Assembly: GCA_902619485.1 (NCBI GenBank)
Contig: CACNEF010000001.1
Span: 62,001 to 126,000, forward strand
Length of the DNA: 64,000 nucleotides
Direction: 5' to 3'
From: an uncultured SAR116 cluster alpha proteobacterium
Lineage (GTDB): Bacteria; Pseudomonadota; Alphaproteobacteria; Puniceispirillales; Marisalimonadaceae
The position numbers and the translations under genes were made by a program. Each line of letters begins with the position of its first letter. Positions within the stretch are counted from its first letter, which is position 1. Below the pieces are notes generated by a model, which saw only the letters and a program-made list of their open reading frames with translations, ran no database searches and was not told where the DNA came from. Positions 15,483-50,460 of the stretch are shown in pieces.

Positions 15483-16476
15483 AATGTTTAAAACACCTGA
15501 ATTTTGGTATAAAAAAAACATCATATCAAAATTACTAATAATACTTCTTTATCCATTTTCTATTTTATGGCTTCAAATGGATAAGTTTAAAAGATATTTT
15601 TCAAAAACTTATAAATCTAAATTAAAGGTAGTTTGCATAGGCAATCTTACTGTTGGAGGAACAGGTAAAACCCCATTTTCCATTTATACTTACAAGCTTT
15701 TAAAAAATTTAGGTTATAATCCAGTGTTTTTGACCAGAGGTTATGGAGGTTCTAAGAAAGGACCACTAGAAGTTAATAATTCACACCATTTTCAAGATGT
15801 TGGTGATGAAGCTATATTATTAAGCAAAGTTGGAACAACAATCGTTTCTAGAAACAGATCCATAGGAGCTAAATTTATAGAAAAACACAAAGATAAATTT
15901 AATGTTATTGTAATGGATGACGGTTTACAAAATTATCAATTAAAACAAGACATAAAATTTTTATTAATTGATAAACAATTAGAGCTTGGCAATGGGTATT
16001 GTTTACCTGCGGGACCATTAAGGCAATCTATAAAACATGTTCTAAACGATATTGACAAAATAATATTAACAGGAGAGAACGACAATAACGAAAAAAAATT
16101 ATTTAAATCTTTTAACATTCCAGTTATTAAATCGAACATTAAGATAGCTATTCCAATAAGAATAAAAAAAGAAAAATTACTAGCTTTTTGTGGCCTTGCT
16201 AATCCCAATAAATTTTTTGAAACACTTAAGAACAATGGATATGAAATATCAGCTACAAAAATATTTCCTGATCACTATGCTTACAAAAAAGACGACGTTA
16301 ACAATTTAATTTTTGATGCAAATAATCAAAACTTAAAACTTATTACAACTGAAAAAGATTATGTTAAAATTTCAGAAAATAAGAACCATATACATTTTTT
16401 ACCAATTGAATTGGAATTAAGTGTGAAAGATAAATTGGAACTTGAAATATTTCTTCAGGAAAAACTAAATGCCTGA
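15472..16476 (+). CDS. lpxK: Tetraacyldisaccharide 4'-kinase LpxK
   Basis: This inner-membrane kinase phosphorylates the 4' position of the lipid A disaccharide. It has one N-terminal transmembrane helix (about residues 15-33), then the P-loop GNLTVGGTGKTP, FLTRGYGG, DVGDEAILL, and VIVMDDGLQNYQL, the standard LpxK order. ATG 15472 overlaps the end of waaA; ATG 15484 is a second possibility and would abut the waaA stop. The following lpxL start overlaps by 8 bp. Length is 334 residues, as expected. Confidence 0.94.
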   Translation: MLLKMFKTPEFWYKKNIISKLLIILLYPFSILWLQMDKFKRYFSKTYKSKLKVVCIGNLTVGGTGKTPFSIYTYKLLKNLGYNPVFLTRGYGGSKKGPLEVNNSHHFQDVGDEAILLSKVGTTIVSRNRSIGAKFIEKHKDKFNVIVMDDGLQNYQLKQDIKFLLIDKQLELGNGYCLPAGPLRQSIKHVLNDIDKIILTGENDNNEKKLFKSFNIPVIKSNIKIAIPIRIKKEKLLAFCGLANPNKFFETLKNNGYEISATKIFPDHYAYKKDDVNNLIFDANNQNLKLITTEKDYVKISENKNHIHFLPIELELSVKDKLELEIFLQEKLNA

Positions 16477-17356
16477 TCCATTAAGTTTTAGAATAAAAAA
16501 GCAATTTGATAGATACATACATGATCCAATAATAGCATTCATAGCTATTCCATTTTTTTTAATACTTAAGCTTTTACCGTATAAATTTTCATCTTACTTG
16601 TGTGGAGCATTAACGTATTTAATAGCTCCACTTACTTCTTACAACAAACGAGTAAAAAAACATTTAAAAATTGTTTTTCCTGAAAAGTCTTTGAAAGAGA
16701 TAAATAAACTTACATCACAACATTGGTTTGTGCTTGGACAGACTTTTGGTGAAATGCCACATATCAATAATTTAATTAAATTAGGTAATTTAAAAACTGA
16801 AGGTTTAGAAAGAATTAAAAAAGGTCCTGCCATTCTTGTAGGAGCACATTTAGCTAATTGGGAATTCCTTTTAAGAGTTGGAGATCTGTCCGGAAGACGT
16901 GCTGGCTATGTTTTTAGACCTATAAATAATTGGATATTAAATAAAATACAAATTTACAGGAATAAAGATGCCAATGCTGACTTTTACAGAAAAGGTCGTC
17001 TTGCGGCTATAGGCATGGCTAGTAAAATTAAAAATGGTGAAATAGTTGGACTAACAGGAGATCAACTTTTAAGAGAAGGTATTATGGTTCCTTTTTTTGG
17101 AATTGAAACACCTACACCTAAGGCTGCTGCAGTTATGGCTTTAAAATGGAATGTTCCAATTTATATGGTTAGAGTAGAACGTTTTAACGGTATAAAGTTT
17201 AAATTAAGTGTTGAGGATAGACTAAAATTTCCAAAAAATTTAGATAAAGATAAAGCTATATATGAAATTACTAGATTAATTTCTAAAAGGATTGAAGAAT
17301 GGATTATAGATAGACCAGAACAATGGCTTTGGGCACACAGACGGTGGGGCAAATAG
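16469..17356 (+). CDS. lpxL: Lipid A late acyltransferase (LpxL/HtrB family)
   Basis: This inner-membrane acyltransferase adds a secondary acyl chain to Kdo-lipid A. After an N-terminal membrane segment, the catalytic HX4E motif is GAHLANWEF near residue 128, and GLTGDQLLREGIMVPFFG and the WLWAHRRW terminus are typical of HtrB-like enzymes. It is the last gene of the lipid A cluster, overlapping lpxK by 8 bp. LpxL and LpxM cannot be told apart by eye. Length 295 residues is normal. The following bases contain no clear intrinsic terminator. Confidence 0.92.
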   Translation: MPDPLSFRIKKQFDRYIHDPIIAFIAIPFFLILKLLPYKFSSYLCGALTYLIAPLTSYNKRVKKHLKIVFPEKSLKEINKLTSQHWFVLGQTFGEMPHINNLIKLGNLKTEGLERIKKGPAILVGAHLANWEFLLRVGDLSGRRAGYVFRPINNWILNKIQIYRNKDANADFYRKGRLAAIGMASKIKNGEIVGLTGDQLLREGIMVPFFGIETPTPKAAAVMALKWNVPIYMVRVERFNGIKFKLSVEDRLKFPKNLDKDKAIYEITRLISKRIEEWIIDRPEQWLWAHRRWGK

Positions 17357-17465
17357 AGTAAGTTTTTTTTCGCCGTTAGCGCAACACTTTGCACGAAGAT
17401 AAGACTAGATATTTATATTTAATGTGCTAGACAGATGGGTCATTATCAAAATGTAAAATTATGAA

Positions 17466-17579
17466 TTACACACCAAACCAGTTATCATATTCTAAGTAAA
17501 TTACTGTAACTGCTATAATTACGTAAGCACAAAGATACCATTTATAAATATAAGAATGTGGTTTACCTTCTTTTTTCAA
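17466..17579 (-). CDS. 37-residue single-pass membrane protein (not in ORF track)
   Basis: This open frame is too short for the track. Read on the minus strand from TTG at 17579 it gives MKKEGKPHSYIYKWYLCAYV... ending YDNWFGV. The TTG is preceded by AGGA with six bases between, a good ribosome site, in a window where most genes lack one. One transmembrane helix (residues about 14-29) follows a basic N-terminus, predicting N-in topology. It lies 18 bp downstream of the 66-residue small membrane protein, so the two look like an operon. I do not recognise a family. Conservation in relatives would decide whether it is real. Confidence 0.55.
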   Translation of the reverse strand: MKKEGKPHSYIYKWYLCAYVIIAVTVIYLEYDNWFGV

Positions 17580-17597
17580 TTCTTTTCCTACAATTAA

Positions 17598-17798
17598 TTA
17601 AAATATAAAGTTTAATCCCCTAAAAAAAAACCAAAAAATACCAAAAATCAAATGAAAGGCTAAAGATAGGAAGATTGCTTTAAATAATTTATTATTTCCA
17701 TCATCCCACCAATTTGTAAAAAGATAAATTAATTTTTTAAATTTATTTTCTCCATCATTCCACCATTGGTCAAAATTGTTTGTGATTTTTTTTGTCAT
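17598..17798 (-). CDS. 66-residue small membrane protein with internal 18-residue repeat
   Basis: The protein begins MTKKITNNFDQWWNDG. Residues 11-27 and 29-45 are a clear duplication: QWWNDGENKFKKLIYLF against NWWDDGNNKLFKAIFLS. The period is 18 residues, five helical turns, so both copies present the tryptophan pair on the same face of an amphipathic helix. A C-terminal hydrophobic segment (about 43-66) follows. No known family comes to mind. It lies convergent with the lipid A operon and upstream of the 37-residue gene. The repeat makes a coding function more likely than chance. Confidence 0.65.
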   Translation of the reverse strand: MTKKITNNFDQWWNDGENKFKKLIYLFTNWWDDGNNKLFKAIFLSLAFHLIFGIFWFFFRGLNFIF

Positions 17799-18149
17799 CT
17801 CATTTAACTATAAAATTGTATCCCATATTAGGGTTAGTTAATATTGAAGGTGAGATATATAAAAAAATATAACCTTTTAACAAAATAAAAAAATTGCCAC
17901 AATTAGAAATAACTTTAGTTCTTTTCTCATAATATAATTTACCACATTTAATCTTTATATTAAATATTTTATATTTTTAATTTAATTCATATAAATGCGG
18001 TTTTAATACATTAAAAATTCATAGTAGGACGTCATTTGGTTCGCCCTGCAAGCACACATTAAAGATACGTTTCTTATCAGATTTTCAGGTTGAAAATATC
18101 ACAATTAATGGTTCGCTCCAATTGCATTAAGTATAAGTATATACAAAAC
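17799..18149. other. Gene-free AT-rich stretch between small membrane protein and xseA
   Basis: No open frame of note occurs on either strand. Bases 17,990-18,120 are less AT-rich than the rest and contain two similar words, GGTTCGCCC and GGTTCGCTCC, each followed within a few bases by a TGCA, but no cloverleaf or stable stem can be built from them. It should hold the promoter for the minus-strand small-protein genes and may hold an RNA gene I cannot recognise. Confidence 0.4.
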
Positions 18150-19487
18150 TTATTTATCTAATTGCGCTGTTCTAATTTTATCTGAAAACCTAATTTTTAC
18201 ATTAGCATTTTTTGGAGCCTCACTGCTAAGTTTAATTGGTTTACCCTTATTGTTCATTATAAGAGAAAATCCTCTTTCAAGTACTCTATTAAAGCTTGAA
18301 GCCTCAAGCAACTGACCTAAAGAATTTAATTTTGTTTCTTTTGTATTCAATATATTTTCAAGATGATTTTTAAATTTTGTCTCTAGAAGTTGTTGTTTTG
18401 AAAATAAATTGCTAATCAAGATTTTGGGGGGCAATAAAGATTTTGCATATTGGGTAATTTTATTTTTTTTCTCCACAAAAATATCTTTGAATAAATTTTC
18501 AAAATCTTTGTATATAAAATCTAACTTTTGAGTTTTATTCTCAAAAATTTGGTCTGGCTTTCCTAACAACTTAATAAGGTAATTAATATGATCTTTATTA
18601 CTATTTAACTTTTTATTGAAGGATGACTTGATCCTTAAATTTAATTCGTCAATCCTTGATATTAATTCATCTCTTACAGGAACTGCCTTTTCTGCAGCTG
18701 CTGTCGGCGTTGGAGCTCTTAAGTCAGATACAAAATCAATCAATGTTGTATCAGTTTCGTGACCTACAGCAGATATTACTGGTATAGAACTTTTATATAC
18801 TGATCTAACAACAATCTCTTCATTAAATGACCATAAATCTTCTAAGCTACCACCACCTCTTGCAACTATAAGCAAGTCAGGCTTTTTAATACTTGTATCT
18901 TCAGTTAATTGATTAAATTTATCAATTGCATTTGAAATCTGATGTGCAGAATCTTCACCTTGGACTGCAACTGGCCACAAATAAACATGAGAAGGAAATC
19001 GATCAGATAACCTGTGAAGGATATCTTTTATTACAGCGCCTGATGGACTGGTAATAACACCTATGATTTGTGGAAGGTAAGGTATTGGCTTTTTGAGTTC
19101 TTGTTCAAACAATCCTTCTTTAAGAAGTTTTTTTCTTCTTTCTTCAAGCATTTTTAGAAGCGCACCTTCTCCTGCCACTTCCATACTTTCTACAATAATT
19201 TGATATTTTGATTGCCCTGCAAAAGTGGTTACTTTCCCAGAGCAAATAACTTCCATACCCTCTTCTGGCTTTATTGGTAACTTTGGTAAAGTATATTTCC
19301 AAATTATTGCAGCTATTGTACCTTCTGTATCTTTTAGGGTAAAATAAACATGTCCTGACCCTGGGAATGAAGGACGAGAAATTTCACCCCTAATACGAAC
19401 ATAACTAAAGTTTGTTTCAACTAATTTTTTAATTACATGTGAAAATTCGCCTACAGAATACACAGGATTATTTGTGTTAGTAATCAT
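18150..19487 (-). CDS. xseA: Exodeoxyribonuclease VII large subunit XseA
   Basis: This is the catalytic large subunit of exonuclease VII, which degrades single-stranded DNA. An N-terminal OB-fold (YSVGEFSHVIKKLVE, GEISRPSFPGSGHVYFTLKD) is followed by the catalytic domain with ITSPSGAVIKDI, ARGGGSLEDLWSFNEE and SAVGHETDTTLIDFVSDLRAPTP, then a long coiled-coil helix region and a short C-terminal strand. Length 445 residues is normal. The small subunit xseB is not in the window. Its start lies about 86 bp from the true purD start; the longer purD ORF-track call would overlap it. Confidence 0.94.
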   Translation of the reverse strand: MITNTNNPVYSVGEFSHVIKKLVETNFSYVRIRGEISRPSFPGSGHVYFTLKDTEGTIAAIIWKYTLPKLPIKPEEGMEVICSGKVTTFAGQSKYQIIVESMEVAGEGALLKMLEERRKKLLKEGLFEQELKKPIPYLPQIIGVITSPSGAVIKDILHRLSDRFPSHVYLWPVAVQGEDSAHQISNAIDKFNQLTEDTSIKKPDLLIVARGGGSLEDLWSFNEEIVVRSVYKSSIPVISAVGHETDTTLIDFVSDLRAPTPTAAAEKAVPVRDELISRIDELNLRIKSSFNKKLNSNKDHINYLIKLLGKPDQIFENKTQKLDFIYKDFENLFKDIFVEKKNKITQYAKSLLPPKILISNLFSKQQLLETKFKNHLENILNTKETKLNSLGQLLEASSFNRVLERGFSLIMNNKGKPIKLSSEAPKNANVKIRFSDKIRTAQLDK

Positions 19488-45447: not shown

Positions 45448-46302
45448 ATGCAAACAACTAAATTTTCACGCCGTCAAGTTTTAGTCACTGCTGCCTCGGG
45501 TTTGGCAGTATCAATGTTAGCACCTGGTTTAGCTCGCGCAGCAAGTAAAACTTTATCTGATGTGAAAGCGTCGGGAGTATTGCAAATCGGATGTGAAGCA
45601 ACGTATCCGCCTTTTACTTTTCGGGACGCGGGTAAGATAGTGGGCTATGATGTCGATTTAGCAGCTTTGATGTGTTCTTCATTAGGGGTTAAGCCAGAAT
45701 TTATTGACACGCAGTGGTCAGGTGTAATTCCAGCGCTTTATGCTGGAAGGTTCGATGTGATTATGTCGTCTATGAGTTACCGTAAAGAGCGTTTAAAAAA
45801 GGTTGCTTTTTCTATTCCGTATGCTGAAGCAAGCCAAGCTATGCTTATTCGAGCAGATGATGCCTCAAAAATCATGTCGGTGAAAGATCTTTCAGGCAAA
45901 GTACTTGGAGTTAAACTTGGATCACCTGGTGAAATGATGAAGCCGGCTCTTGAAAAAGAAATCGTAGCCGCCAAAGGAAAGGGTTTTTCTGATGTAAAAA
46001 TTTATGATGATCATCCCTCTGCATACCTTGCGCTCAGTCAAGGAACAGTTGATGGTGTGCTTAACACTCTGCCAACATTAGGAAAAGTGATGAAGGACCG
46101 TCCAGGTGCATATGCATTAGTACGCCCAGTAGGAAAGTTGAATTGGGCAGGAATAGCAGCGCGTAAAGAAGATACAGAAATTGTCAAATGGATGGATGCT
46201 GAACTCACGAGGCTGAAAGATAGCGGAGAGATTTACGCATTGCAAGAAAAGTGGTTTGGGTTCAAAATGCAACTGTCAGACACAATTCCTTCGTTTGCGT
46301 GA
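45448..46302 (+). CDS. Family 3 (polar amino acid-type) solute-binding protein, Tat-exported
   Basis: This periplasmic receptor feeds the adjacent ABC permease. The signal has a twin-arginine motif, FSRRQVL, followed by a hydrophobic stretch and GLARA, so it is exported folded by Tat, which is less common than Sec for this family. The mature part shows GCEATYPPFTFRDAGKIVGYDVDLAALM, the family 3 ligand-binding N-lobe, and later FDVIMSSMSYRKERL. The conserved ligand arginine (SMSYRKER region) and aspartate are consistent with an amino-acid-like or zwitterionic ligand. Strong AGGAG ribosome site. First gene of the island operon. Confidence 0.9.
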   Translation: MQTTKFSRRQVLVTAASGLAVSMLAPGLARAASKTLSDVKASGVLQIGCEATYPPFTFRDAGKIVGYDVDLAALMCSSLGVKPEFIDTQWSGVIPALYAGRFDVIMSSMSYRKERLKKVAFSIPYAEASQAMLIRADDASKIMSVKDLSGKVLGVKLGSPGEMMKPALEKEIVAAKGKGFSDVKIYDDHPSAYLALSQGTVDGVLNTLPTLGKVMKDRPGAYALVRPVGKLNWAGIAARKEDTEIVKWMDAELTRLKDSGEIYALQEKWFGFKMQLSDTIPSFA

Positions 46303-46317
46303 TAGCTAGTTTAACTT

Positions 46318-46351
46318 ACCTTGTCCCTTTAATAGCTTAGGGGGACAAGGT
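46318..46351 (+). promoter_or_regulatory. Intercistronic hairpin between binding protein and permease
   Basis: ACCTTGTCCC and GGGACAAGGT are perfectly complementary over ten bases with a 14-base loop, between the solute-binding protein stop and the permease start. No U-tract follows, so it is not a standard terminator. Such hairpins often protect the upstream mRNA and give more binding protein than permease, which fits transporter stoichiometry. It is also possible that it acts as a weak terminator. Confidence 0.7.
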
Positions 46352-46366
46352 TAAAAAGGTGATTAT

Positions 46367-47020
46367 ATGACTATTGATTGGGGCATTATATTTAAAAGCA
46401 TTCCACTCCTTGGTCATGGTGTAGTAGTAACGTTGCAAGTCTCAGCACTAGCATCTGTCTTAGGTTTGATGCTTGGTGTAGTTTTGGGTTTGTGTTCACT
46501 GTCGCATAGCAGAGCCCTTCGTTGGATTGTTGCTGGTTATGTTGATTTTATACGCGGTACACCGTTGCTGATCCAAATTTTTCTAGTTTTTTTTGCACTC
46601 CCTGCGCTTGGTGTTCGATTTGATGAATTTTGGGCCGGTGTAGTCGCACTTTCTTTGAATTCCGCAGCATTCGTAGCTGAAGTTGTGCGAGGTGGCGTTG
46701 GGTCTATTGAGCGAGGCCAGTCCGAAGCAGCAACTGCCATAGGCATGCGACATAGGCAAATTCTAATATATATTTTACTTCCACAAGCTTATAGACAAAT
46801 GGTTCCGCCACTGACAAACGAGCTAATAAGCTTAGTAAAAAATTCATCTTTACTCTCGGTAATATCAGTATATGAACTAACAAGAGCAGGTCAGGCAATA
46901 ATCTCAGTGCACTTTGTGCCATTTGAGATTTATACTCTGCTAGCGGTGTATTATTATGTTCTTATTAAAGTATTAAGCTGGTTGTCAGGTCGACTTGAGC
47001 GGAGGCTTCCAACATGGTAA
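46367..47020 (+). CDS. Polar amino acid-type ABC transporter permease
   Basis: A 217-residue inner-membrane permease of the HisM/GlnP type, with five or so hydrophobic segments. The coupling EAA-like loop is [29 protein letters not shown], as in this family, and [19 protein letters not shown] is the usual N-terminal signature. A single permease gene suggests a homodimer. It overlaps the ATPase gene by 7 bp. Arginines are coded mainly by CGN, unlike in neighbouring chromosome genes. Confidence 0.92.
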
Positions 47021-47760
47021 CTCCGGTAATCCAGGTGCAAGATCTTAGCAAAAGCTTTGGAGATAATTCTGTGTTACGTCGTGTATCGATGGATGTAGCT
47101 ACTGGTGAAACTGTTGTAATTATTGGAGCATCTGGTTCAGGTAAGACCACCTTTCTACGCTGCCTAAATAGATTGGAGGAGCCTGGCGCTGGTACTATAC
47201 GGTTAGATGGAAACCCAATGGTGAATAGTGGTTCTGAAAAACTTATCGCAGACCAACGCAGTCAATTTGGCTTTGTTTTCCAAAGGTTCAATCTATTTCC
47301 TCATTTTTCTGCCCTAGATAATGTAGCTATCGGGCCTGAAAAGGTTCGTGGGATGTCTAAGTCGGATGCAAGAGCTCTCGCCGCAGCTGAACTTAAACGG
47401 GTTCATATGTCTGATCACGTAATGAAGCGTCCAGTTCAGCTATCCGGTGGGCAACAGCAAAGAGTAGCAATAGCACGAGCACTAGCAATGAAGCCTAGAG
47501 TTATGCTGTTTGATGAACCAACTTCGGCCCTGGATCCTGAATTGGTTCAAGAGGTGCTAGATGTGATGAAGGAATTAGCAAACGGAGGTATGACTATGGT
47601 AGTAGTTACCCATGAAATGAATTTTGCGCGTGAAGTTGCAGACCGCGTAATTTATATGGAAAATGGTAGGATTGCTGAGGAGGGTCCACCAGAAATTTTG
47701 TTCAGAGAACCAAAATCGCCTGGTGCACAGCGGTTTCTTAGGCATTTGAACCATGAGTGA
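47014..47760 (+). CDS. Polar amino acid-type ABC transporter ATP-binding protein
   Basis: A cytosolic ATPase of the GlnQ/HisP type (248 residues). It has Walker [11 protein letters not shown]-loop [15 protein letters not shown], signature [15 protein letters not shown], Walker [13 protein letters not shown] and the switch histidine in [16 protein letters not shown]. It energises the permease just upstream, whose last bases it overlaps. Its own end overlaps the amidohydrolase start by 8 bp, so transport and hydrolysis are coupled at translation. Confidence 0.94.
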
Positions 47761-49126
47761 GGCTCTTGCAACACCAGATATGATCGTAGCAGGAGGCACT
47801 CTGCTTACCTCAGATCCCAGTAGACCTTACATCCAAGAAGGTTGGGTAGTTATAGATAACGGCCGAATACAGTCAATTCAAGACAAAAAGCCGGACAGGT
47901 TTCACCCGGCAACAAAAGTAATAGATGCGAAGGGGTTTGTCATTACACCTGGGTTTGTTAATGTCCATACCCATGCTATCCTTAGTATGGTTCGCGGAGT
48001 GGCAGAAGATATGGGGTTTGCGCCGGCTTATACCATTGGTGTGCCTCATGGACATGATCCAAGCCCAGAAGAGGCATATGCTATGGCTCAGCTGGGCGGT
48101 TTAGAAGCACTCCTCTTCGGATCAACTATAATCAACGATACCTTCACACACCAGAATATTTCACTTCCAGCGATGGCTGAAACAGGGATCAGAGCATGGG
48201 GCTGTGGAAGAATCCACGATGTTGATTTTACACGCGTACATCTCGGTGAGTGGACCTATAACACAGAAATAGGAGAACATACTCTCAGGGAAGCCTCGGA
48301 ACTGATTGAAGAATACCACGATCCAATTAGTCTACGCACTGGGGTGGTTTTAGCACCTCACGCGCCAGATACTTGTTCGCCAGATCTATTGCGCCAAGTT
48401 CGAAATATGCGTGACCACAAAGGATTGCGGATCAACACTCATGTTTCACAAAGTCAAGTTGAAGTTGATTTCATTCGAGAACGTGACAAGATGAGTCCAC
48501 CTGAATTATTGGAAGATGTCGGACTGCTAGATAATCGTTTAATTGGTGCGCATTGTATACACGTATCGAAAACAGATATTGAGAGACTTGGACGCGCAGG
48601 CGCACATCTGGCTCATATAGCTAAGGGCAATCAAACACACGGTCAGGTGGCGCCGACCAGTGCTCTGCGTCGCGCGGGTATGAATTTGGCACTTTCAACC
48701 GACAACATGCATGCTGATATGGTGGAATTGATGAGATGGGCTTTAGCTTCAGGTCGTTTACAAGATGGTAAGATTACCAATGATTGGCAGCCTGCCAATG
48801 TATTTGAGGCTGCTACAATTGGAGGTGCGCGGGCGCTTGGTCTGGAAGACGAGGTTGGTTCTTTAACAGTTGGTAAACGCGCTGATTTAGTAATGTTTGA
48901 CTTTAGGCGCCCACATTTGAGACCGCTTACAAACGTGTTGGGAACACTTGTACACACAGGACAGGGTCGAGACGTAGATACAGTCATTGTGGAGGGCGAG
49001 GTTGTTGTTTCTGGTGGAGAGCCACTACGAGTGGACAAATTAGCTGTTCTTGAAGCTGCAGAAACTGCAGCCGCTGCGCTATGGCGCCGAGCGCGATCAG
49101 AAGAGTTAGCGTTTTCAAAAAGTTAA
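47753..49126 (+). CDS. Amidohydrolase/deaminase of the TRZ/ATZ-MtaD type
   Basis: A cytosolic metal-dependent hydrolase of 457 residues. Metal ligands are H72 and H74 ([11 protein letters not shown]), H230 (RINTHVSQ), H267 ([10 protein letters not shown]) and D317 ([10 protein letters not shown]), the TIM-barrel pattern of the TRZ/ATZ and S-adenosylhomocysteine/guanine deaminase group. The position after an amino acid-type importer suggests it opens or deaminates an imported nitrogen compound, possibly a cyclic amidine or N-heterocycle. The substrate cannot be named. It has high GC and CGN arginine codons. The tRNA-Leu follows 75 bp later. Confidence 0.9.
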
Positions 49127-49201
49127 ATTTTAAGAATGTTGGTTGAATTCAAAACTACGAATAATCCTCTAAACACCCTACCTACATTTATTTATGAAGT
49201 T

Positions 49202-49286
49202 TGGTAGGGATACCCGGAATCGAACCGGGAAGCCTTGCGGCACTGGTTTTTGAGACCAGCGTGTTTACCTATTTCACCATATCCCC
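49202..49286 (-). tRNA. tRNA-Leu (anticodon CAA)
   Basis: The minus strand folds as a full cloverleaf with a long variable arm. Acceptor GGGGATA pairs with TATCCCT (one G-U at the first pair), the anticodon stem CTGGT/ACCAG frames a CTCAAAA loop with anticodon CAA, the variable arm is TGCCGCAAGGCTT, and the T-arm CCCGG-TTCGATT-CCGGG is perfect. ACCA is encoded at the 3' end. It reads UUG leucine codons. It marks the right end of the genomic island. Confidence 0.95.
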
Positions 49287-49377
49287 AAATAATTATTTCA
49301 ATTACCTATTTAATACTTATAACAATGTTAATAAATTTAAAATATTAATTTAATTTTTTTAATATATAACAAGCAAC

Positions 49378-49977
49378 ATGATATTCTTAAGTATAAAAAC
49401 TAAAATTGATCTTTTAATTGAAAAAGCAAAATATAATGCGAAAAAACCCTTAGCCGAAAAAATTCTTGGCTTTATTTCTTCAATAGAATCAATAATTTTT
49501 CCTATTCCAGTTGATCCATTTCTTGCAGGATTGACTTTAGCAGCCCCAAAAAAAGCATTCAAATTTGGATTATTTTGTACAATTGGCTCAGTTATTGGAG
49601 GTGTTATAGGATGGTTACTTGGTTATTTTATCGGACCTTCAATTGAAAATATATTATTGAACATTCCTTGGTTTACCGAAGAAAAATTTATGTCAGTAAA
49701 GTCAGCCTATAATGAAAATGGTATGCTTATAATTTTTTTAGGAGCATTTACACCTCTTCCATACAAAATTATTACCATTACAAGTGGTATAGCTGGAATA
49801 AACATCATTGGGTTTATATTAATGTCTCTTGTAGGTAGGGGTATGAGATTTTTTATGGTTGCATATTTAACAAAATTTTTTGGGATGCCTGCTTTATTAT
49901 TTTTACAGAGACATTTTCTTTTATCTTCTAGTATATTAGGAATAGCAATTATTGTATTTTCGATTTATGTTTTTTAG
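49378..49977 (+). CDS. YqaA-like SNARE-associated (DedA-related) membrane protein
   Basis: A 199-residue protein with four or five hydrophobic segments. The pattern ESIIFPIPVDPFLAGLTLAAPKKAFKFGLFCTIGSVIGGVIGWLLGYFIG followed by FLGAFTPLPYKIITITSGI is typical of YqaA-type relatives of the DedA/SNARE-associated family. These affect membrane homeostasis or lipid transport; the precise role is open. It is followed at once by dsbB and coq7, with stops and starts touching, so the three form one transcript. Confidence 0.82.
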   Translation: MIFLSIKTKIDLLIEKAKYNAKKPLAEKILGFISSIESIIFPIPVDPFLAGLTLAAPKKAFKFGLFCTIGSVIGGVIGWLLGYFIGPSIENILLNIPWFTEEKFMSVKSAYNENGMLIIFLGAFTPLPYKIITITSGIAGINIIGFILMSLVGRGMRFFMVAYLTKFFGMPALLFLQRHFLLSSSILGIAIIVFSIYVF

Positions 49978-50460
49978 ATGTCCACAAGTAATATTTTCAA
50001 AATTTCGTTTATTATTTCATCTTTAATGCTACTTTCAGCTTTTTATTTAGAGTATTTTCATGGTGCTTTACCCTGCGATCTTTGTATCACTCAAAGATGG
50101 TTTCATAGTTCAATCATTGCTTATAGTTTCATAATTATTTTAATTATTAACAAAACTTTGATTTCTAACAAACTTCTTTTACTAGTTGGAGCTATTCTTT
50201 GGCTTTCAAGCTCTTTAGCAGGGTTATATCATTTTGGAATAGAGATGAATTTTTGGACTGGTCCTGATGAGTGTTCATCAAATATTGATTTTTCAAAAGA
50301 TACACTTACATATTTATTACAAAAATCTACTATCAAGTGTGACGAAGTAATGTTTGAAATATTAGGATTATCTCTTGCTGGTTGGAACGCGCTAGCTTCA
50401 TTCTTTATCTTCTTAGTAGCTATTATTTTATTATTTAACAAAAGGCTAATGAAAATATGA
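49978..50460 (+). CDS. dsbB: Disulfide bond formation protein DsbB
   Basis: An inner-membrane quinone reductase that reoxidises DsbA. There are four hydrophobic helices. The first periplasmic cysteine pair is C33 and C36 in LPCDLCITQR. The second pair is in the periplasmic loop at PDECSSN and TIKCDEV. This is the DsbB pattern; 160 residues is normal. It begins right after the yqaA stop codon and overlaps coq7 by 4 bp. Its quinone partner fits the coq7 neighbour only loosely. Confidence 0.88.
   Translation: MSTSNIFKISFIISSLMLLSAFYLEYFHGALPCDLCITQRWFHSSIIAYSFIIILIINKTLISNKLLLLVGAILWLSSSLAGLYHFGIEMNFWTGPDECSSNIDFSKDTLTYLLQKSTIKCDEVMFEILGLSLAGWNALASFFIFLVAIILLFNKRLMKI

Follow-up and report, generated by a model that had tools for sequence, protein, structure and literature searches.

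The closest described counterparts of the proteins considered here are CydX and AcrZ, and the passages on them in two publications (PMC6005532, PMC7267776) indicate that such small proteins can act as docked accessory subunits. In the 64,000-nucleotide stretch of DNA from an uncultured SAR116 cluster alphaproteobacterium that we analyzed (hereafter, the window), ORF2 is the middle gene of a cassette of three genes for tiny single-helix proteins, all of which agree with the CydX/AcrZ class in size and in the possession of a single helix. An earlier note, made from the letters of this DNA alone, had singled out a tandem repeat that belongs to ORF2 but had missed the cassette. Because the transmembrane helix of ORF2 has a conserved face, and CydX and AcrZ work through such a face, we take a role of this kind as the most likely one: ORF2 would be an accessory membrane subunit or regulator that, like CydX or AcrZ, docks on some larger enzyme or transporter of the membrane, a reading to which we assign a probability of roughly 0.45. 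SAR116 bacteria are abundant in the surface ocean, and their smallest genes are poorly annotated.

ORF2 and its duplicated WW-turn unit

ORF2 (17598..17798, minus strand; 66 aa, MTKKITNNFDQWWNDGENKFKKLIYLFTNWWDDGNNKLFKAIFLSLAFHLIFGIFWFFFRGLNFIF) consists of two WW-turn units and one transmembrane helix. The two strings reported at 17664-17768, residues 11-27 (QWWNDGENKFKKLIYLF) and 29-45 (NWWDDGNNKLFKAIFLS), are present at exactly that place, although they run from 17768 down to 17664 on the minus strand. Unit 1 comprises residues 11-28 (17715..17768, minus strand; QWWNDGENKFKKLIYLFT) and contains WWNDGENKFKK, with W12, W13, G16, K19 and K22 invariant; unit 2 comprises residues 29-46 (17661..17714, minus strand; NWWDDGNNKLFKAIFLSL), contains WWDDGNNKLFK, with W30, W31, G34, K37 and K40 invariant, and continues into the transmembrane helix. 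The internal repeat with a period of 18 scores 69 (BLOSUM62, ungapped), compared to a maximum of 55 among 3000 residue shuffles, and in three homologues with the same period, the observed score was reached or exceeded by 1, 0 and 0 of 3000 shuffles. Moreover, in an alignment of 23 sequences, the pattern W-W-x-x-G-x-x-K-x-x-K is invariant in both units, at a spacing of exactly 18 residues, so that both the period and the paired tryptophans described in the earlier note hold. ORF2 is a real gene because its pN/pS, at 0.25 in one clade and 0.19 in another, contrasts with values of 1.0-1.6 in the other reading frames.

Searches of Pfam, NCBIfam, PHROGs, PADLOC and Rfam with the cassette yielded nothing above noise, and the search of the PDB by sequence produced no match below E 0.4. 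None of the libraries searched has an entry for the families of ORF1, ORF2 and ORF3, and the original impression that no named domain resembles the repeat was thus correct for Pfam, NCBIfam, PHROGs, PADLOC and the PDB.

Homologues of ORF2 were sought in 101 near genomes and then in 136 genomes of the order. The carriers, about 35 species, all belong to one family of the SAR116 cluster (Puniceispirillales), with the two-unit form present in three genera and a single-unit form in one. In a class-level sample of 385 genomes, ORF2 and ORF3 matched the query genome alone. A further scan, with a pattern against 84,980 species genomes, gave 33 records, exclusively from SAR116-cluster loci; four of these are titled more broadly (alpha proteobacterium, Pseudomonadota bacterium) yet match genomes of the same genus. 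When the 136 order-level genomes were scanned at the DNA level for WW[DN][DN]GxxxK, the ORF2 gene alone was hit, usually with two matches per genome, and with a single match where one of the units reads WWQDG or WWEDG and in the genus whose proteins are 45 aa long; the reversed control pattern matched one genome only, once per strand. Weak ORF2 matches in five further genomes and some others contained internal stops or lacked the WW motif and were rejected. ORF2 is missing from some members of the window's genus whose genomes are nearly complete, including one at 99% and one at 100%, and accordingly does not perform a core function.

The single-unit homologues, 45 aa long (MDKESQEKLRTWWDDGDSKLKKSLYIFLCLQILLGIIWFIEYIFI) and found in two species of another genus, keep one unit and the transmembrane helix. 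Homologues with more copies had been proposed as a target for a search, and the homologues found have two units at most. Given that two species possess one unit only, the functional core seems to be the WW-turn unit rather than its duplication.

The predicted transmembrane segment of ORF2 spans residues 41-59 (17622..17678, minus strand; AIFLSLAFHLIFGIFWFFF), with a 19-residue Kyte-Doolittle mean of 2.25. An AlphaFold2 model, built from the 23-sequence alignment for a single chain and without a membrane, has a mean pLDDT of 89.3 and predicts helices at residues 2-13, 19-31 and 37-65, with breaks at NDGEN (residues 14-18) and DDGNN (residues 32-36), such that each WW pair closes one helix and the Gly turn opens the next. 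Eighteen residues would equal five helical turns, and the earlier note had read each unit accordingly; the model contradicts such continuity but agrees with the proposed NDG turn, and because the predicted breaks fall at both NDG motifs, the unit is better described as a putative helix-Gly-turn module. The predictions also favor the membrane-surface placement suggested for the repeat, and add a point missing from that interpretation, namely, that the repeat continues into a transmembrane helix. Invariant Lys and Trp residues ahead of a transmembrane helix fit an N-terminal half at the cytoplasmic membrane surface, under the aromatic-belt and positive-inside rules. ORF2 is probably a small inner-membrane protein with the N terminus in the cytoplasm. 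Comparison of the model to the PDB with Foldseek gave no match, as expected for a helical protein this small.

Within the transmembrane helix, S45, H49 and W56 are invariant in 23 of 23 homologues and lie on one face, a pattern that favors a partner helix or a ligand. One candidate ligand would be heme or a pigment, ligated by H49 together with W56 and S45 in a dimer or in a heteromer with ORF3, in the way of the small His-bearing subunits of cytochrome b559 or light-harvesting complexes. The position of the invariant histidine within the bilayer, on the same face as S45 and W56, is compatible with such cofactor binding, but Q takes the place of the histidine in the single-unit homologues, neither the sequence nor the fold matches any solved His-bearing small subunit, and no cofactor genes were recognised beside the cassette, so that we consider this explanation very unlikely.

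The three-gene cassette and its stand-alone relatives

ORF1, upstream of ORF2, encodes a 43-aa transmembrane protein that is intact in relatives (MRKELKLFLFVAIFFILLKGYIFFYISPSILTNPNMGYNFIVK); in the window, it is a remnant (17800..17930, minus strand) with a one-base frameshift within a run of T. ORF3 (17466..17579, minus strand) encodes a 37-aa transmembrane protein (MKKEGKPHSYIYKWYLCAYVIIAVTVIYLEYDNWFGV), predicted to form one helix at residues 8-36, and has AGGA ahead of its start codon, which is TTG in nearly all relatives and ATG in two. The peaks of 19-residue hydropathy are 2.38 in ORF1 and 1.77 in ORF3, next to the 2.25 in ORF2. The layout is operon-like: in most copies, the ORF1 stop precedes the ORF2 ATG by 1 nt, and about 18-30 nt separate ORF2 from ORF3; in one clade, about 155 bp lie between ORF1 and ORF2. 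The conserved cassette core (17449..18015, minus strand; about -217 to +350 from the ORF2 start) retains 80-85% DNA identity across loci with different neighbours within the genus. Scans for promoters and terminators gave no more matches than in shuffled sequence.

All three genes are under purifying selection, with in-frame pN/pS of 0.19 for ORF1 (intact copies) and 0.20 for ORF3 in addition to the values given above for ORF2, compared to 0.66-1.7 in other frames. The ORF1 frameshift in the window may be a sequencing error; among other members, ORF1 is frameshifted, has an internal deletion or is lost, the deletion and the loss being clear. Several genomes have a disrupted or decayed ORF1, which makes an obligate complex of the three proteins unlikely. 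Among the 40 genomes of the genus, ORF2 and a cassette-type ORF3 are both present in 28 and both absent from 12, a count that leaves out one weak, spurious ORF2 match and that reflects the linkage of the two genes.

True relatives of ORF1 and ORF3, about 37-40 aa long and of the MSKDFKVFLGVASFFVLLKGYIFFNINPSIYLNP and MKNGGKPHSYIFKWYFFGYLFIFIVVAYLENWF types, occur outside the cassette. Across the family, many genomes have solitary ORF1-type genes (about 40 aa), with up to several copies each, in shuffled regions; solitary ORF3-type genes extend to further genera and, within the order, to one genome from a different family. These paralogues differ from the cassette in that they are found alone or by other small genes, and not with ORF2. 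Their existence suggests that the cassette was assembled from single-gene modules.

The regions around the ORF1 paralogues present features of their own. At nine loci, they are mosaics in which small-gene modules recur with changed order and orientation. Several of the paralogues come after a Cys-rich gene of 72 aa (MSYFCNKCEYPFKTLWRCKYGHHKEW...) that matches nothing in Pfam, and at three of the nine loci, a tiny membrane protein (MIQNYINWEKKQIDWWKEKLGVSDHGVAWISFIKGILVGLLVYHFFIV), also without a Pfam match, is encoded upstream of the paralogue and has WW before its transmembrane helix. A 77-bp repeat upstream of ORF1 paralogues, a candidate for the end of a mobile element, is the 3' part of a small Cys-rich gene, and an integron-like array was likewise rejected, given the mixed strands and the lack of a recognisable recombinase ORF.

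The dispersal of ORF1 and ORF3 paralogues through variable genome regions bears on the possibility that the cassette encodes peptides similar to type I toxins, or other membrane-acting peptides, that depolarise the membrane when expressed and are kept as relocating copies. The cassette proteins resemble toxins of the Fst/Ldr type in being small, hydrophobic, single-helix products of intergenic genes with dispersed copies, and the patchy presence of the cassette at different sites points the same way. However, three closely spaced coding genes replace the single peptide with its antisense RNA; no antisense RNA family or antitoxin was found by Rfam in or around the locus (17000-18600, no match up to E 1); and PADLOC, PHROGs and Pfam gave no toxin match. 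Moreover, ORF2 has a large cytoplasmic part, and the strong conservation of its side chains is unusual for membrane-disrupting peptides. On balance, a toxin-like function appears rather unlikely, and an accessory subunit or regulator remains our preferred interpretation of ORF2.

Chromosomal sites of the cassette

In the clade of the window, the cassette sits between two convergent genes, an lpxL-like acyltransferase gene (16469-17356, plus strand) and xseA (18150-19487, minus strand), the occupied insertion site being 17357..18149. In four genomes (G004, G006, G014 and G024), the gap between xseA and lpxL is about 20-35 bp and the site is empty; two of these, G004 and G014, carry the cassette at another place. 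In other carriers, the cassette has TauE or an ABC transporter gene nearby, adjoins a formyl transferase gene, or lies in runs of small unknown genes. The neighbouring genes vary by locus, and the cassette is accordingly independent of them.

In the xseA tree, G004, with its empty site, is nested within the clade of filled sites, and a tree in which the filled sites were forced together was rejected at p-AU 0.042, a borderline value from a test made after the tree had been seen. This position of G004 points to relocation or loss of the cassette, or to recombination at xseA. At another locus, an lpxL fragment, an oddly ordered xseA end and the cassette are linked on one short contig to the right flank of a different locus; the contig is possibly a chimera of single-cell amplification.

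Different sites and patchiness, together with the decay of ORF1, are compatible with a small-gene cassette that is purely selfish or neutral, devoid of a cellular role and kept by relocation. Yet ORF2 and ORF3 are intact under strong purifying selection, and the cassette includes neither a transposase nor a recombinase ORF, nor convincing terminal repeats, the only terminal inverted repeats being weak AT-rich pairs, which sets it apart from transposons and insertion sequences; we therefore regard a purely selfish or neutral cassette as unlikely. One such weak pair, 32 nt at 72% (17395-17426 and 18055-18086), surrounds the cassette in the window and is missing from the other cassette loci; it is probably an AT-rich coincidence.

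Relocation by phages or islands would be the corresponding premise if the cassette were a phage-related or anti-phage membrane module, active in superinfection exclusion or akin to holins. The patchy distribution and the location of some copies within runs of small variable genes are compatible with this scenario, but no relative of ORF2 was found in 50,697 phage records and none of ORF1, ORF2 or ORF3 in IMG/VR viral contigs, PADLOC gave no match to a defence model, and no phage genes adjoin the cassette among the neighbours scanned. We accordingly attach little weight to a phage connection.

Elsewhere in the window, positions 46001-50000 have a GC content of 40-44%, compared to about 30% around them, and include genes for an amidohydrolase and for two ABC proteins, a permease and an ATPase; a family 3 solute-binding protein directly precedes them, and a tRNA-Leu (49202-49286, minus strand) adjoins. 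This segment looks horizontally acquired.

Comparison with small membrane subunits

Under the preferred reading, the N-terminal half of ORF2 would comprise two helix-Gly-turn modules, in which the paired Trp and the Lys residues would hold short amphipathic helices at the cytoplasmic surface of the membrane, and the C-terminal half would be one transmembrane helix, with the conserved face formed by S45, H49 and W56 contacting a partner helix or a ligand. The sequence data establish the gene, its repeat and its conservation, the purifying selection, the operon-like layout and the different chromosomal sites; fold and topology are predictions, and partner binding and regulation by ORF2 are inferred.

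A more far-reaching version of these ideas is conceivable, in which the cassette would encode a three-component membrane complex of one SAR116 lineage, an operon drawn together from dispersed micro-protein genes that moves without an enzyme of its own; ORF2 would have grown by duplication of the 18-residue WW-Gly-turn unit, and its transmembrane His face would bind a cofactor or a partner. We hold this combination to be unlikely.

Taken together, these results describe a lineage-specific operon of micro-proteins that is under strong selection and changes its chromosomal place, and a defined 18-residue helix-turn module, the copies of which (one or two) differ between genera. The locus offers a small, testable case of new membrane protein genes arising, duplicating internally and combining into operons.

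The comparison with CydX and AcrZ involves both differences and similarities. ORF2 has no sequence relation to these proteins, and searches of Pfam and NCBIfam and of the PDB by sequence and by fold produced no match to their families. No defined large membrane complex is encoded together with the cassette, the neighbours of which differ between loci; instead of residing beside a constant host complex, ORF2 travels with two tiny membrane proteins. Furthermore, it has two extra cytoplasmic WW-Gly-turn modules. Like CydX and AcrZ, however, ORF2 is a short protein (<70 aa) that has one predicted transmembrane helix and no enzymatic domain, and presents a conserved helix face.
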